DNA from: an uncultured Prevotella sp.
GTDB taxonomy: Bacteria > Bacteroidota > Bacteroidia > Bacteroidales > Bacteroidaceae
DNA: 55,193 nucleotides
Reading direction: 5' to 3'
NCBI GenBank assembly: GCA_900318395.1
Contig: ONKL01000019.1
Span: forward strand, 1 to 55,193
Shown: in pieces, positions 45,675 to 53,736 of the stretch
Layout: each line of letters opens with the position of its first letter
How positions within the stretch are numbered: position 1 is the first letter of the stretch
Program-made: the position numbers and the translations under genes
Notes under the pieces: generated by a model
What the model saw: only the letters and a program-made list of their open reading frames with translations
Database searches by the model: none
Told to the model about the DNA's origin: nothing

Positions 45675-45715
45675 AAAAAAAAGCACCTCTGGTATGATAC
45701 TAGAGGTGCTTTTGG
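45675..45715. terminator. Bidirectional terminator
   Basis: GCACCTCT (45683-45690) pairs with AGAGGTGC (45702-45709). An A8 run lies on the left and TTTT on the right, so it serves the tssD remnant and the convergent gene at 45736. An unusual C-rich run (45662-45674) precedes it. Confidence 0.85.
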
Positions 45716-45735
45716 GTCATGTAATAAGTAAAATC

Positions 45736-46161
45736 TTATCTGAGATTGAAGAATGGGAAGAAGTACATTACTGCCACGCGGCGTACATCAGTCATCTGCT
45801 CAGCCCTGCCGATGATTGAGCCGTTCTTGCGGATGTCGCCGTTCTTCTCAACGCGGCCCACGATGGATCCGCTGATACGAACATCGTTATTCTGCTCTAC
45901 TCTGCCGATGATTGAGCCGTTCTTACGGATATCGCCGTTCTTCTCAATCCTTCCTACGATAGAACCTCCCACACGGATGTCACCATTGGCCTCGAAACGG
46001 CCTACGATAGAACCTCCGATACGCACATCACCGTTGGACTCGATCTTTCCAACGATGCTACCACCCAGGCGCAGATTGTCGCCCAGCGCATTGGTATGCA
46101 CTGTGAGCAACAGGACTACAGCCATTACCAGTCTTAAAAAGCTTGATTTCTTCATTGTCAT
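45736..46161 (-). CDS. Secreted protein made of 15-residue beta repeats
   Basis: 141 residues. A signal peptide (KKSSFLRLVMAVVLLLTVHT, then NALG) is followed by six repeats of 15 residues of the form (G/N)GSI(V/I)G(R/K)xExNGD(I/V)R, from about 30 to 120, and a short hydrophobic end MYFFPFFNLR. The regular glycine, isoleucine and charged positions suggest a beta-solenoid or beta-roll. ATGs at 46161 and 46155 are both possible. It starts 6 bp after the end of the gene at 46168 and is probably co-transcribed with it. Function unknown; it may be a structural or adhesin-like surface protein. Confidence 0.72.
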   Translation of the reverse strand: MTMKKSSFLRLVMAVVLLLTVHTNALGDNLRLGGSIVGKIESNGDVRIGGSIVGRFEANGDIRVGGSIVGRIEKNGDIRKNGSIIGRVEQNNDVRISGSIVGRVEKNGDIRKNGSIIGRAEQMTDVRRVAVMYFFPFFNLR

Positions 46162-48081: not shown

Positions 48082-48531
48082 CTATATTAATGCGTTTACG
48101 GTCTCATGTGACTTCTTACGGCTTCTTCTTATCTTTGTTTCTGCCTTTTCTCTTAATTGTAAAGATAAAGGGTGACTTTGTATTGGACTATACATGATAT
48201 AATACTTGTCTTTCCTAAATGAGATCAGCCCAATACCATACTTTTCGAAAAGATTAATGTGATTAAATGCTTTATCAGCAGTTTCTTCTGGAAGCACGAC
48301 ATATGAGTAATCAGAAAAACTCCTATATCGAAAAGCTTGTATCATAGCCCCTCTCCAATTCTTGAGCTTAAGTTCGAAGGAGACGACCTTTATGCCTGTA
48401 TCAAGTTTTGAGAAGCACACGTAATCAGGGATGCCAAAGAGTCCTTGCCATTCCTTAAAATATGTATTGCCTATTGTAGATTTGATATATTTCTCAAAAT
48501 CAACAGACATTAAATCTTCTGATGTGTACAT
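48082..48531 (-). CDS. Putative PD-(D/E)XK nuclease
   Basis: 149 residues. The nuclease core is visible: P35-D36 in FGIPDYVCF, E53-x-K55 in SFELKLKNW, and a following helix with Q65 (AMIQAFRYRSFSDYSYVVLP), the order and spacing of restriction-endonuclease-like folds. The C-terminal ~35 residues are basic (REKAETKIRRSRKKSHE). It would cleave nucleic acid in the cytoplasm. The ATG overlaps the stop of the 392-residue gene by one base, so it is the last gene of a kinase-unknown-nuclease operon. The exact family is not recognised; the catalytic triad is the basis of the call. Confidence 0.7.
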   Translation of the reverse strand: MYTSEDLMSVDFEKYIKSTIGNTYFKEWQGLFGIPDYVCFSKLDTGIKVVSFELKLKNWRGAMIQAFRYRSFSDYSYVVLPEETADKAFNHINLFEKYGIGLISFRKDKYYIMYSPIQSHPLSLQLREKAETKIRRSRKKSHETVNALI

Positions 48532-49709
48532 TATAGTGTTTTTTTATATGCATTTAACACATTATACCAAATTGGAAGATGAGAACCATCACTATCTCCA
48601 TCAAGAAGTACAGAATCTTCAATAATCTTATAGTTTGATACTGCTGTTTTTATCACATCCTTCAGATATTCAATACGTGTGAGCTGATCATTTGGCAGAG
48701 ATTTAATCTGTCTTGTGAACACTTCAAAATAATGTTTGTATATCTCAGACTTTGCAAAATGCCAACTATAAGGTTGACCTCTGAACTCACCCAAGCTAAA
48801 CATAAGAGGCTTATACTGAGTATCATCAAAAAACTTGTCGTAGTCACTTACAAGGGACTTCATGGATTCTATGTAATTATAATCCATCCATTGCAACAAC
48901 TTGGAACTATATAATCTTGCGTTTGGAGCCCTCATTTGTTTACTTTCAGTTGTCTCAAAACGAGAGATCTTGAACATTCTCAAGTTCTCATAGGAACCAA
49001 TAGTTACAGAGTCAGGCATTGCAGCACTAAATAATAAACCCTCAGTATTGCAATAACCTATATGAACTTCGAGTTCGTTTTTTTTGAGAATCTCGATAAA
49101 GAACATTACATTCTTCAAATATTCAAAATCTTTTATCTGTTTTGAATTGTAATTGTTTTCGAAGATTAAATAAAAGCCTGTTATTTCCGAAAAACTTGTC
49201 ATCCAGTTCAGCAATTCGTCACGCTTTGCTTCATCTTCTATCATAATTTGTTTCACAAGAACAGTCAAGAGAAAAGGTTTTGTGATACTTTTCTTTGCCT
49301 TATTGTCCAAAAAAGGGTACACAAAGTTTTCGGATAGATTCTCCAAATACCTAGTTGGCAAAGCATCTACGTAACGAGTTGGTATAACAATATATCTAAA
49401 ATCTGCATTTAACTGATAATCGACACATAGCTCTGCCAATTGGTCATTATTTACATCCAAATCTACAGTAGAAAAATCACTCTTTATGTTGCCTGGAAAG
49501 AATGGATAAGTGACATTAGATGATTTTTCAATGTTCAAAAGATAAAACTGAGGATCCAAGAATGATATCTGACGTAAGTCTGCTGGTAAGGCTAACAACT
49601 TGTCAGACTCCATATTAATTGGAGAGAAAATCAATCCATCACCGATACCCTCTTTTTGGCAATCAATGTTCCATTTATCGCGGAAACCCATTTGATGAAA
49701 TACATTCAT
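48531..49709 (-). CDS. Protein of unknown function in kinase-nuclease operon
   Basis: 392 residues, no signal peptide and no membrane segment. The N-terminus is MNVFHQMGFRDKWNIDCQKE. The middle has alternating strands and helices (FLLTVLVKQIMIEDEAKRDE, ITGFYLIFENNY, NVMFFIEILKKNELEVHIGY, then CNTEGLLFSAAMPDSVTIGS), a rhythm suggestive of a TIM barrel such as tRNA-guanine-transglycosylase relatives, but no diagnostic motif of that family is present. The gene starts 4 bp after the kinase stop and ends at the nuclease start, so the three are translated together. It may be the effector or sensor the other two act with. I do not recognise a family. Confidence 0.7.
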   Translation of the reverse strand: MNVFHQMGFRDKWNIDCQKEGIGDGLIFSPINMESDKLLALPADLRQISFLDPQFYLLNIEKSSNVTYPFFPGNIKSDFSTVDLDVNNDQLAELCVDYQLNADFRYIVIPTRYVDALPTRYLENLSENFVYPFLDNKAKKSITKPFLLTVLVKQIMIEDEAKRDELLNWMTSFSEITGFYLIFENNYNSKQIKDFEYLKNVMFFIEILKKNELEVHIGYCNTEGLLFSAAMPDSVTIGSYENLRMFKISRFETTESKQMRAPNARLYSSKLLQWMDYNYIESMKSLVSDYDKFFDDTQYKPLMFSLGEFRGQPYSWHFAKSEIYKHYFEVFTRQIKSLPNDQLTRIEYLKDVIKTAVSNYKIIEDSVLLDGDSDGSHLPIWYNVLNAYKKTL

Positions 49710-50627: not shown

Positions 50628-50743
50628 CAACTTTTTTTCGAGAATTTGGCATAAAACCACCGTTTTACGCGTAATTTAAGCAAATTTTATCTAAAAACAC
50701 ATCTATTAGAGAGTATAAATTGCGATATTTGAGGATTTTTATG

Positions 50744-50752
50744 TATCTTTGC
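50744..50752 (+). promoter_or_regulatory. Promoter of the structured RNA
   Basis: TATCTTTGC on the plus strand; transcription would begin near 50759, about 40 nt before the long hairpin. Confidence 0.65.
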
Positions 50753-50758
50753 AACGCA

Positions 50759-50940
50759 TATTGGCGACATGCCATCTTTGCAAGACATATTGCTCACATC
50801 CTGCCAAATTACCACACCGAAAGGATAAAAAGAGCAAACACCAATCATCGTGAAGTCGCGCCTTAGGCGCAGACTTCCCCGTAGATGATTGGAGGCTGTG
50901 GTAAGCCTGGCAGGATTATGGTGGCGGTCTGCGCCATTTC
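50759..50940 (+). ncRNA. Candidate structured RNA with a 119-nt hairpin
   Basis: Five nested perfect stems: 50798-50806 with 50908-50916 (9 bp), 50811-50816 with 50897-50902 (6 bp), 50841-50849 with 50884-50892 (9 bp), 50852-50857 with 50872-50877 (6 bp), and 50858-50862 with 50866-50870 (5 bp, loop TTA). A second small hairpin (TGGCG/CGCCA, near 50922-50936) and TTTCT follow and could end the RNA. There is no reading frame in it. It lies between the kinase operon and the LRR gene at 51010. It is either an independent RNA or the long leader of that gene. Confidence 0.55.
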
Positions 50941-51189
50941 TATGATTGAAAAGTCAATGAATAACAGATGTCGTGTTTTAATTATTTAAATCTTAAGCTA
51001 TACATAAATATGAATAGAAAGAACTTTTTAATCGTGTTTATTCTTCTAATGGTTGGCACGGATGTTAGAGGAGAACAAGTAACAGCTGTAATCAATGGAT
51101 TGCGTTATTTGTTAAATGATGGCAATGCTCAAGTTGCAAGACAAGATAAATCTTTATCTGGTGATATAGTTATTCCAGAAAAGGTATCT

Positions 51190-51288
51190 TTTGGAGGTAA
51201 CGACTATATCGTAAACAGTATTGTTTATCCGTCAAATACGGCAACTTATGGAGGTCATACATCCATATCTGCCGAGGGTGGAGCTTTT
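51190..51288 (+). repeat. 99-bp direct repeat, copy 1
   Basis: Identical base for base to 51894-51992. It encodes FGGNDYIVNSIVYPSNTATY and the following residues to GGAF. It ends in a run of five Ts (51285-51289), where the reading frame is lost. Confidence 0.9.
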
Positions 51289-51893
51289 TCATCGGATGCT
51301 CCGAACTACAGAAGGTGATTCTTCCAGAAACATTGACATCTATTGGCTTTGGATGTTTTGCATACTGCTCATCATTAACAGACATTGTTCTTCCTTCAAA
51401 TGTGAGTAGTGTGTCGGAGTGGGCTCTTGGTGGATGTACAAGCCTTAAGACGATCAACATACCCGAGAATCTCACTACTCTTTCACGGGCGGTCTTCTAC
51501 AACAGCGGATTGGAGGAAATTACTATTCCGGCAACTGTCCGTCAAATGGTAGAAGGGTGTCTATCAACAAGCACCCTGAAAAAAGTTACAATCTATGTTA
51601 GGGACATAACAGGAATTAGTTATACAGAATCATGTTTTGGAAATGTCAACAATACGGATTTGTATGTTCCTGAGGGCTCCAAGTACATTTACCAAGAGTA
51701 TTATCCTTGGAGAGAATTCAAAAGCATTGTGGAGTTTGATGACGGTCATGTTGGCGAACCAATCAACCCATTGGAAATGATGATTACTGTTGATGGGTTA
51801 AGGTACAAGATTACCGATGATGGGTTTGCACAGGTAGGGCAGCAAGATAATTCCACTTTATCTGGGGATATAATTATTCCGGAAAAGATATCC

Positions 51894-51992
51894 TTTGGAG
51901 GTAACGACTATATCGTAAACAGTATTGTTTATCCGTCAAATACGGCAACTTATGGAGGTCATACATCCATATCTGCCGAGGGTGGAGCTTTT
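51894..51992 (+). repeat. 99-bp direct repeat, copy 2
   Basis: Second identical copy, 704 bp downstream of the first. It ends in four Ts, where the frame is lost again. Confidence 0.9.
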
Positions 51993-53736
51993 ATCCTCAT
52001 GTGCATTCTCTGGTTGTTCTTCATTAAGTACTTTGACCATACCCAATAGTGTTACCACTATCGGCGAGAGGGCTTTCAGTAGGTGCAGTAGTCTTACGTC
52101 GGTGGTGATTCCCAACAAGATTGAAACGATAAATGAATACACATTTAGTGAATGCTATAACCTAACTTCATTATCGCTACCTGAAAGTGTTACAACAATC
52201 AAAGGTCATGCTTTCGATGGTTGTTCAAAACTTGAAAGTCTGATTATCCCCTCAAAGGTGGAATATATCTATCAGCAAGCATTTGCTAATTGCGGCAATC
52301 TGCAAAGTGTAAAGTCACTGGCTGAGACCCCTCCATTCCTCTACGACAATTCATTCTCGAACTACGAGATTCCTCTCTATGTCCCAGAAGGAGCGCGTGA
52401 AGCTTATCAGGGGAAAGAACCTTGGAACAAGTTCAAGGAGATACTCTCAGGTGCAGACACCAAGTACACACTGACCTACAAGGTTGACGGCGAGGTTTAT
52501 ACAATGTATAAATTGTTGGAAGGTGCAGCGATCACCCCAGAGCCTGCTCCCACGAAGGAGGGTTATGAGTTCTCAGGCTGGAGCACGATTCCTGCAACGA
52601 TGCCTGCAGAGGATGTGACCATCACTGGTACGTTCACGCTGCTTACTGATGAGGATGAAATCACTATCAAGGAAATCGGCAAGACGACTTGGTGTAGCAA
52701 GTATGATCTCGACTTTACGAACGTGGCGGGCATCAAGGCTTATACGGCTACTGGGTATGATGATATTTCAAAAACCATCTGGCTGACTCGCGTGATGGAG
52801 GTGCCTGCGGGTACTGGCTTTTTGGTGAAAGGTGATCCTGGTACTTATAAGATTCCTCATTCTGAAGTGCAGTCTGCTTATGCAAACTGGTTCGTTGGCA
52901 ATCTTGGTGATGCTATCAAGATTGTAGAGACTGACGGCGACAAGGTGAACTATTACCTCAGTGGTGACGGCACCTTCAAGAGTGTGAATAAGACTGCGAA
53001 CATCGGTACCAACAAGTGTTACCTGCAGTTGCCAAGAACGTTCGAAGCTGCAGTAACTGGTGCCACTCAGACGGTAAAGGTTGGTTCGATTGGCAAGGCT
53101 TCGTTTGCTGCTCCTGTCGATTTGGACTTCACGAATGTATCAGGTTTGAAGGCCTTCACGGCTACAGGCTATGATAAGAGCACGAAGACGATCTGGCTGA
53201 CGCGTGTGATGAAGGTCCAGAAGGGTGAGGGAGTGCTGCTGAAGGGCGATCCCGATAATTACGAGATACCTTCTGTCGCCGTTCAGAGCAGTTATGAGAA
53301 CATGTTCGTAGGCAACACGAGTGGTGATGAAATTCAGGTTCAGGAGACATCTGAAGATGGCAGTCAGACGAACTATTACCTCAGTGGTAAAGACGGTTCG
53401 TTCGTCAGTGTGAACGGCTTTGCTAAAATTGGCAACAACAAGTGCTACTTGGCATTGCCGACCTCGATGGTAGCCGTTTCCTCTACCCGTAGTGCAGAGG
53501 ATGATTACAAGTTCGAGGAGCCTGAGGTGATTAAGTTACCCATCGAGTTCAAGAGCATCGGCTCCGAAGGTGACGGCACGACAGGCGTTAAAGAAGTGAA
53601 AAGTGGAGAAGCGAAAGGTGATGAGTGGTATACCCTCCAAGGCCAGCGTGTCGCTAAGCCAGGTAAGGGGCTATACATCAGGAATGGAAAGAAGGTCGTG
53701 ATAAAGTAACCTCCACACCTTATTAATATTAAAACT

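Follow-up and report, generated by a model that had tools for sequence, protein, structure and literature searches.

A family of RNA leaders in Prevotella and other Bacteroidales with two conserved pairings, a candidate transcription attenuator

The long hairpin encoded near the end of contig ONKL01000019.1 from an uncultured Prevotella sp. (the window, the whole stretch of 55,193 nt) is one copy of a widespread and conserved family of RNA leaders, for which Rfam has no match. The copies are 5' leaders located between a promoter and a gene on the same strand, mostly a gene for a secreted protein. Two conserved pairings share the 3' strand of the hairpin apex and, on steric grounds, should exclude each other. 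As judged from its sequence, the leader is probably a cis-acting transcription attenuator with competing folds, a reading to which we assign a probability of roughly 0.6.

The leader in the window and its family

The earlier note had described a promoter, a nearly continuous 119-nt hairpin and a small terminal hairpin. The promoter and the long hairpin were borne out: the −7 box TATCTTTG is located at 50744–50751, and the arms span exactly 119 nt (50798–50916) around the apex GCGCC-TTA-GGCGC (Table 1). The continuity was not, as a one-sided 25-nt bulge (50816–50840), which contains the conserved motif GAGCAA, interrupts the 5' side between stems 2 and 3. The small terminal hairpin (GGCGGTCTGCGCC) is found in the window copy, but what the copies keep is complementarity between the terminal strand and the 3' side of the apex. 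The segment 50744–50940 folds with −75.7 kcal/mol, a value that none of 200 dinucleotide shuffles reaches (mean −52.7 kcal/mol, sd 4.4; z = −5.17). This score, together with the covariation of both pairings, rules out a chance hairpin. The intergenic region is shared with the kinase operon, as the earlier note had it, and a divergent promoter-like box of that operon was seen there by eye.

Table 1. Coordinates of the leader and its gene in the window
Feature	Position	Strand	Basis or remark
Bacteroides-type promoter, TTG (50720) and TATCTTTG (50744–50751)	50720–50751	+	−33 part by eye
Small 5' hairpin TGGC..GCCA near transcript start	50762–50774	+	By eye; differs among copies
Conserved element	50790–50938	+	Match of covariance model R1, 140.5 bits
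5' hairpin P1, TTGCTC 50790–50795 with GAGCAA 50832–50837	50790–50837	+	Fold of 5' part, pairing counts
P1 extension, ATCCT with AGGAT	50798–50802/50822–50826	+	P1 competes with arm A
Long hairpin, overall	50798–50916	+	Fold, self-versus-cross pairing, covariation
Long hairpin, arm A	50798–50806/50908–50916	+	
Long hairpin, arm B	50809–50815/50898–50904	+	
Long hairpin, arm C	50841–50849/50884–50892	+	
Long hairpin, apex	50852–50862/50866–50877	+	
Alternative terminator-like hairpin, 50866–50883 with 50917–50935	50866–50935	+	Fold, covariation
Small hairpin AGGC..GCCT inside terminator-like hairpin	50893–50908	+	
U-tract position	50936–50943	+	Weak in window copy (ATTTCTAT)
BspA-type LRR gene behind leader	51010–53709	+	Split over three reading frames; start resembles a signal peptide

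The window copy is the sole covariance-model match in its own genome, in which further blastn matches are short (best E 0.1). With blastn, 13 of 149 genomes match, own genome included, and the others are 69–88% identical. The RNAalifold consensus of a 16-copy alignment contains 16 pairs, of which 13 show compensatory changes, and the covariance model was built from this alignment. The model matches 152 of 299 genomes of the genus (E ≤ 0.01). In the family sample it matches 109 of 301 genomes, from 15 of 30 genera, and in the order sample 18 of 295 genomes, from 14 of 184 genera (both E ≤ 0.001); in the phylum sample it matches 2 of 296 genomes (E ≤ 1e-4). The own genome is counted each time. 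Scoring in these samples was limited to the top ten candidates of each genome, which makes the copy numbers (1–8) lower bounds.

A DNA-pattern search of a contig collection returned at least 120 stretches, and the covariance model confirmed 60 of the 68 that were rescanned, one of the 60 being cut by a contig end. Titles of the confirmed stretches are mostly Prevotella, Prevotellaceae, Bacteroidaceae or Bacteroidales, many are from ruminants, and Lachnospiraceae is the title of one stretch (L296). Among the eight unconfirmed stretches, seven are titled as other groups. None of 4227 Rfam models matches over the element in the window, in 14 loci or in 16 more. All Rfam matches are located outside the element, which rules out a known Rfam family. 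A PK-repZ match at 45675–45795 (+) of the window is below the gathering score (E 0.12) and probably due to chance. Phage and plasmid records gave no match in a blastn search with the window copy, a search limited by the highly variable stems, and viral contigs gave none with one narrow pattern, of a kind that caught just 35 of 153 copies. At locus L011, positions 1501–1549 are 88% identical to the promoter-proximal 49 nt of the window copy and are followed by different sequence that lacks the element.

Three weak or partial matches (L096:4934, L242 and L298:786) were left out before a set of 239 copies was assembled. A cut at <85% identity, which removes places present twice among the loci, left 128 non-redundant copies.

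These copies define the position of the element. Of 126 copies, 119 have a TAnnTTTG box no more than 110 nt upstream, usually at −39/−40, compared with three boxes, reported as a bare count, in a control stretch 300–410 nt upstream. Of the 128 copies, 111 are followed on the same strand by an ORF (80 aa or longer) whose start is within 350 nt, with a median gap of 75 nt, and several of the 17 copies that lack one are near contig ends. Between the element and the start codon, at most 110 nt after the element, 50 of 126 copies contain a hairpin-like motif, TTAGTGC...TATTAAC. A conserved leader peptide was rejected, since an ATG ORF of at least 8 codons is closed inside the leader in only 43 of 128 copies.

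The downstream proteins look secreted in 93 of 111 cases; of 432 other ORFs at these loci, 129 do (Fisher p = 2.5e-25). The classification is by a crude signal-peptide heuristic, and some control ORFs may be spurious. A Pfam scan of 110 of the 111 (L217 left out, proteins cut at 480 codons) identified 54 families, of which LRR_5 comes first with 11 members. No metabolic theme or coherent pathway is apparent among these 110 proteins, and secretion is their common trait. A reverse transcriptase, which a retron msr-msd would have next to it, is absent from the 25 listed of the 54 families, a count that refers to the downstream side.

Thus, the copies occupy leaders and are not a repeat found at many unrelated places, and the leader position across copies supports the suggestion that the window copy leads the LRR gene. 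So does its closest homologue, L195, where the start of the LRR gene is kept (93 aa, 95.7% identical). At L195, of which 1.5 kb on each side was covered, the three kinase-operon proteins have no match. Both frame breaks of the LRR gene in the window come after the same repeated motif, ISAEGGAF.

Pairings of the long hairpin, the terminal strand and the 5' part

The pairings were analysed in alignment A4, which comprises 78 copies fetched after model building (75 distinct rows). A4 was fitted to the long-hairpin structure, so its counts for the long hairpin lean towards that structure. Pairing is kept in 99.4% of the cells of arms A and B and the apex. Both-side changes occur in 17 of 20 pairs versus 14.3 in shuffles (2 of 500), and covariation is 0.811 versus 0.247 in shuffles and at most 0.133 in slid versions. 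One of the five covariation measures, the number of further pair types, is no better than in shuffles (46 versus 45.8; 294 of 500).

In a self-versus-cross test on the 128 copies, each 5' strand was paired with the 3' strand of its own copy or with those of other copies. The z values are −44 for arm A, −25 for arm B, −43 for arm C and −13 for the apex. Over eight helices they range from −5.2 to −44, versus −1.0, −1.3 and +0.5 for three control strand pairs; relatedness inflates the values, and the control pairs are equally exposed to it. The arms are hypervariable in sequence among copies, and the stems are conserved as pairings, with compensatory change.

The 3' strand of the apex, together with the adjoining CCATA, is complementary as well to the strand TATGG..GTCTGCGC, which immediately follows arm A. 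This terminal strand abuts arm A in the window copy, and is a few bases away at most in other copies. The terminal helix and the inner AGGC:GCCT hairpin, both absent from the search model, are paired in 96.5% of A4 cells, versus 25–47% for slid versions. Both-side changes occur in 12 of 17 pairs versus 5.8 in shuffles, and 0 of 500 shuffles do as well on any one of the five measures. The self-versus-cross z values are −9.2 for the helix of apex 3' strand and terminal strand and −11 for AGGC:GCCT. All four tested apex bases are able to pair with both partners in 68 of 75 distinct rows, and triple-consistent changes linking the three apex strands are seen in only 5 cells. We infer that the terminal strand should not reach the apex while arms A–C are closed, and the two pairings are therefore taken as mutually exclusive.

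In the window copy, the sequence from 50866 to the end of the element folds into a near-perfect hairpin (−38.9 kcal/mol). When folding starts at the 3' strand of the apex, the corresponding helix forms in 127 of 128 copies. The 8 bases that follow include six or more T in 99 of 123 copies, and five in the window copy (ATTTCTAT). A G+C-rich hairpin with a U-tract directly behind is thus a trait of the family, with a weak U-tract in the window copy, and by its sequence this hairpin resembles a transcription stop signal.

The 5' end of the element, TTGCTC, pairs with the GAGCAA of the bulge, with 6 of 6 pairs possible in 99 of 128 copies. Replaced pairs include TAGCTC/GAGCTA, TTACTC/GAGTAA and TGGCTC/GAGCCG. 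The z value of −9.5 for this pairing is optimistic, since the partner was chosen as the best match; the extension into arm A has the lowest support of all helices (z = −5.2). A pseudoknot, in which TTGCTC and GAGCAA would pair within the long hairpin, is sterically implausible, considering the short linkers and the 16 intervening base pairs. The pairing is instead read as a separate 5' hairpin, P1, which constitutes a third alternative fold. Consistent with this reading, the 5' part folded alone forms P1 in 123 of 128 copies. Conserved unpaired bases of the 5' part include AA after TTGCTC, GAA between arms A and B, and ACCTCG after arm B.

Folding energies favour the long hairpin. The whole element folds into it in 114 of 128 copies, and its mean energy is −57.7 kcal/mol versus −44.0 kcal/mol for P1 plus terminator-like hairpin; the long fold is lower in 128 of 128 copies, with a mean difference of 13.7 kcal/mol. 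Compared on its own with the hairpin of arm C and apex (−25.5 kcal/mol), the terminator-like hairpin (−30.7 kcal/mol) is the more stable in 117 of 128 copies. Once the 5' part is removed, however, the complete 3' part still folds with a closed apex in 117 of 128 copies, and with the terminator helix in 8. Thus, equilibrium energies alone do not give a terminated state, and a simple rule by which holding arms A and B leads to the terminator was dropped. Kinetics, a factor or a pseudoknot fold would be needed to open the apex; the last, with arm C closed and the terminal strand on the apex, is beyond the scope of RNAfold.

Nine weakly matching, divergent loci come from the order sample (L221–L229, 29–48 bits). 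One of them, L225, resembles coding sequence and was left out of folding. The lowest-energy fold is a long hairpin in seven of the other eight, and P1 plus terminator-like hairpin in L222. A helix of 6–9 pairs between apex and end is found in six of the eight (L221, L222, L223, L227, L228 and L229), while L224 contains a local hairpin followed by seven T and L226 lacks an apex-to-end helix. Runs of six or seven T are found in several of these relatives.

Histories of arms, flanks and whole elements

In 30 pairs of copies, identity is at least 80% both in the 5' flank (45 nt) and in the 3' flank (60 nt). Gene bodies (150–600 nt region) are at least 85% identical in 9 of the 30 pairs, and arm A is identical in all nine. 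In 13 of the 30 pairs the gene bodies are unrelated (alignment identity 0.56–0.60), and arm A identity in 12 of these is 0.44–0.56 in seven, 0.78–0.89 in three and 1.0 in two; the remaining pair, L024/L160, was left out because its value of 0.11 is a register artefact. For instance, L110 and L289 are identical in the 5' flank, 92% identical in the 3' flank and 44% identical in arm A. As the pairs were picked by flank similarity, these values indicate different histories of arms and flanks and do not give a mutation rate.

Whole elements recur as well. Of 162 compared pairs, 25 match only within the element ±15 nt, although both counts include places entered under two ids, at least three among the 25 and some among the 162. 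L024 and L296 are 99.4% identical inside the element and have unrelated flanks. Recombination between the conserved ends combined with selection for pairing would explain the exchange, and mobility would too.

Avoidance of identical arms within a genome, as expected for insulation, is not supported by 150 copies from 94 genomes. Identical arm A occurs in 0 of 85 within-genome pairs, with 1.08 expected (p = 0.32), and identical arm B in 12 pairs versus 6.6 expected, so that it is shared rather more often.

Loci L178 and L181 are 99.6% identical around the leader and have a 2.67-kb difference that starts just inside the gene behind it. Insertion of a cassette behind the leader was considered here and discarded, as a deletion explains the difference equally well. 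No integron-type site was seen by eye.

Attenuation, rival explanations and significance

The two exclusive pairings suggest a switch. In the ON state, the long hairpin, namely arms A, B and C with the apex, would lock the apex 3' strand, and polymerase would read into the gene. In the OFF state, P1 would prevent closure of the long hairpin by holding the 5' halves of arms A and B; the terminal strand would then take the apex 3' strand, and the resulting hairpin and U-tract would end transcription. Termination by the hairpin, the role of P1 as the sensing part and the assignment of the ON state are predictions of this model. Because the predicted energies alone keep the apex closed, a factor or the kinetics of transcription probably helps the terminal strand. 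The closed apex that the 3' part keeps in most copies counts against the attenuator reading. So do the weak U-tract of the window copy, the one covariation measure of the long hairpin that is no better than in shuffles, the choice of the P1 partner as the best match, the small number of triple-consistent changes, the lack of a coherent pathway downstream, and the 17 of 128 copies that lack a same-strand ORF within 350 nt.

The element is reminiscent of intrinsic-terminator attenuators and the expression platforms of OFF riboswitches, with a promoter-proximal leader, mutually exclusive antiterminator-like and terminator-like hairpins, a U-tract and a gene downstream. Unlike in these systems, neither a known aptamer nor a conserved leader peptide was detected here, the putative antiterminator is a 119-nt hairpin with stems that differ by copy, and up to 8 copies per genome precede unrelated, mostly secreted proteins. 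T-box leaders and protein-dependent antitermination leaders work by competition between terminator and antiterminator, a feature that the element appears to have in common with them. In contrast to T-box leaders, the element has no T-box match in the Rfam scans, and no specifier or protein-site motif was identified here.

DUF805 RNA (Rfam RF03081, cis-regulatory) is likewise a multi-copy leader element of Bacteroidales, but it is a separate 68-nt family, without a match in the window genome or in genomes G007, G062 and G237. At L228, a DUF805 RNA (1386–1454, −; 79 bits) is located between the divergent candidate attenuator and the start codon, directly downstream of the former. Inspection of ten DUF805 loci by eye identified the candidate attenuator upstream in one (L363, the same place as L228), and the DUF805 leader of L370, also by eye, contains sequence like both ends of the candidate attenuator without its middle.

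Fremin and Bhatt (2021; PMC8040213) report palindromic terminator-like candidate RNAs, mostly from Bacteroidetes, for example HMP2_4205 of 132 bp. By description, which is the level of this comparison, these candidates are similar to the element in length, in their occurrence in Bacteroidetes and in predicted Rho-independent terminators. Our literature search, which covered that paper in part, returned no account of the leader, and the leader may be among its anonymous candidates.

A classical metabolite riboswitch would be a special case of the attenuator, concerning its sensing part only, and the two probabilities overlap. The conserved unpaired bases of the 5' part (AA, GAA and ACCTCG) and the presence of leaders in multiple copies argue for it. 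The 54 Pfam families among 110 downstream proteins, which lack a metabolic theme, the hypervariable arms and the absence of an Rfam aptamer over the element argue against it, and we consider this case unlikely, though worth keeping in mind.

Alternatively, the terminator-like hairpin could end a trans-acting transcript of ~190 nt, a small RNA of its own for which the place before genes would be secondary. Its own promoter, the compact structure and the U-tract fit such an RNA. The constant, tight spot before a same-strand gene (111 of 128 copies, median gap 75 nt) does not, and a plain terminated small RNA would not need the conserved alternative pairing of the apex, which makes this explanation improbable. 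Similarly improbable is an effect of the leader on translation or mRNA stability, in which the second pairing would reshape the message without ending transcription. The leader position, the hairpin-like motif that 50 of 126 copies contain before the start codon and the weak U-tract of the window copy would agree with such an action, but in 99 of 123 copies the helix is directly followed by a U-tract, and several divergent relatives contain runs of six or seven T.

The element could also be a small mobile DNA repeat, whose hairpin serves transposition, and the 25 of 162 pairs that match only within the element ±15 nt, L024/L296 among them, would be expected from such a repeat. A kept promoter upstream, a kept gene downstream, two competing pairings that are also kept, and the absence of matches in phage or plasmid records make this very improbable. 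The proposal of the earlier note that the hairpin is a guide or antitoxin-like RNA of the kinase module draws on the intergenic region shared in the window, and deserves virtually no credence, since a tblastn search of 358 other loci (many with 1.5–5 kb of flank, some overlapping) with the three operon proteins found a single match, a generic kinase at L286 (27.7% identical). Two proteins of the kinase operon, at 48082–49709 (−) of the window, have no Pfam or PADLOC match, and the operon kinase matches the PD-T4-6 and Mad6 models over the kinase domain only.

Beyond attenuation itself, the stems might be exchangeable, gene-specific addresses. A genome would then contain several switches of one design, and a trans partner, RNA or protein, would read the arms and choose surface proteins. 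The idea derives from the promoter, leader and signal peptide that are common to families of surface proteins, from arms that differ from gene to gene with compensation, and from whole elements that recur as units between unrelated flanks. We regard it as speculative and quite improbable.

The leader looks like a large class of regulatory RNA, absent from Rfam, in bacteria that are highly abundant in gut and rumen. It is placed mainly before secreted proteins, foremost BspA-type repeat proteins, and to our knowledge little has been established about the regulation of such proteins. The preserved pairing, the differing histories of arms and flanks, and the exchange of whole elements form an unusual combination that calls for explanation. 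The two pairings yield clear predictions for in vitro transcription, and the covariance model can be used on metatranscriptomes.
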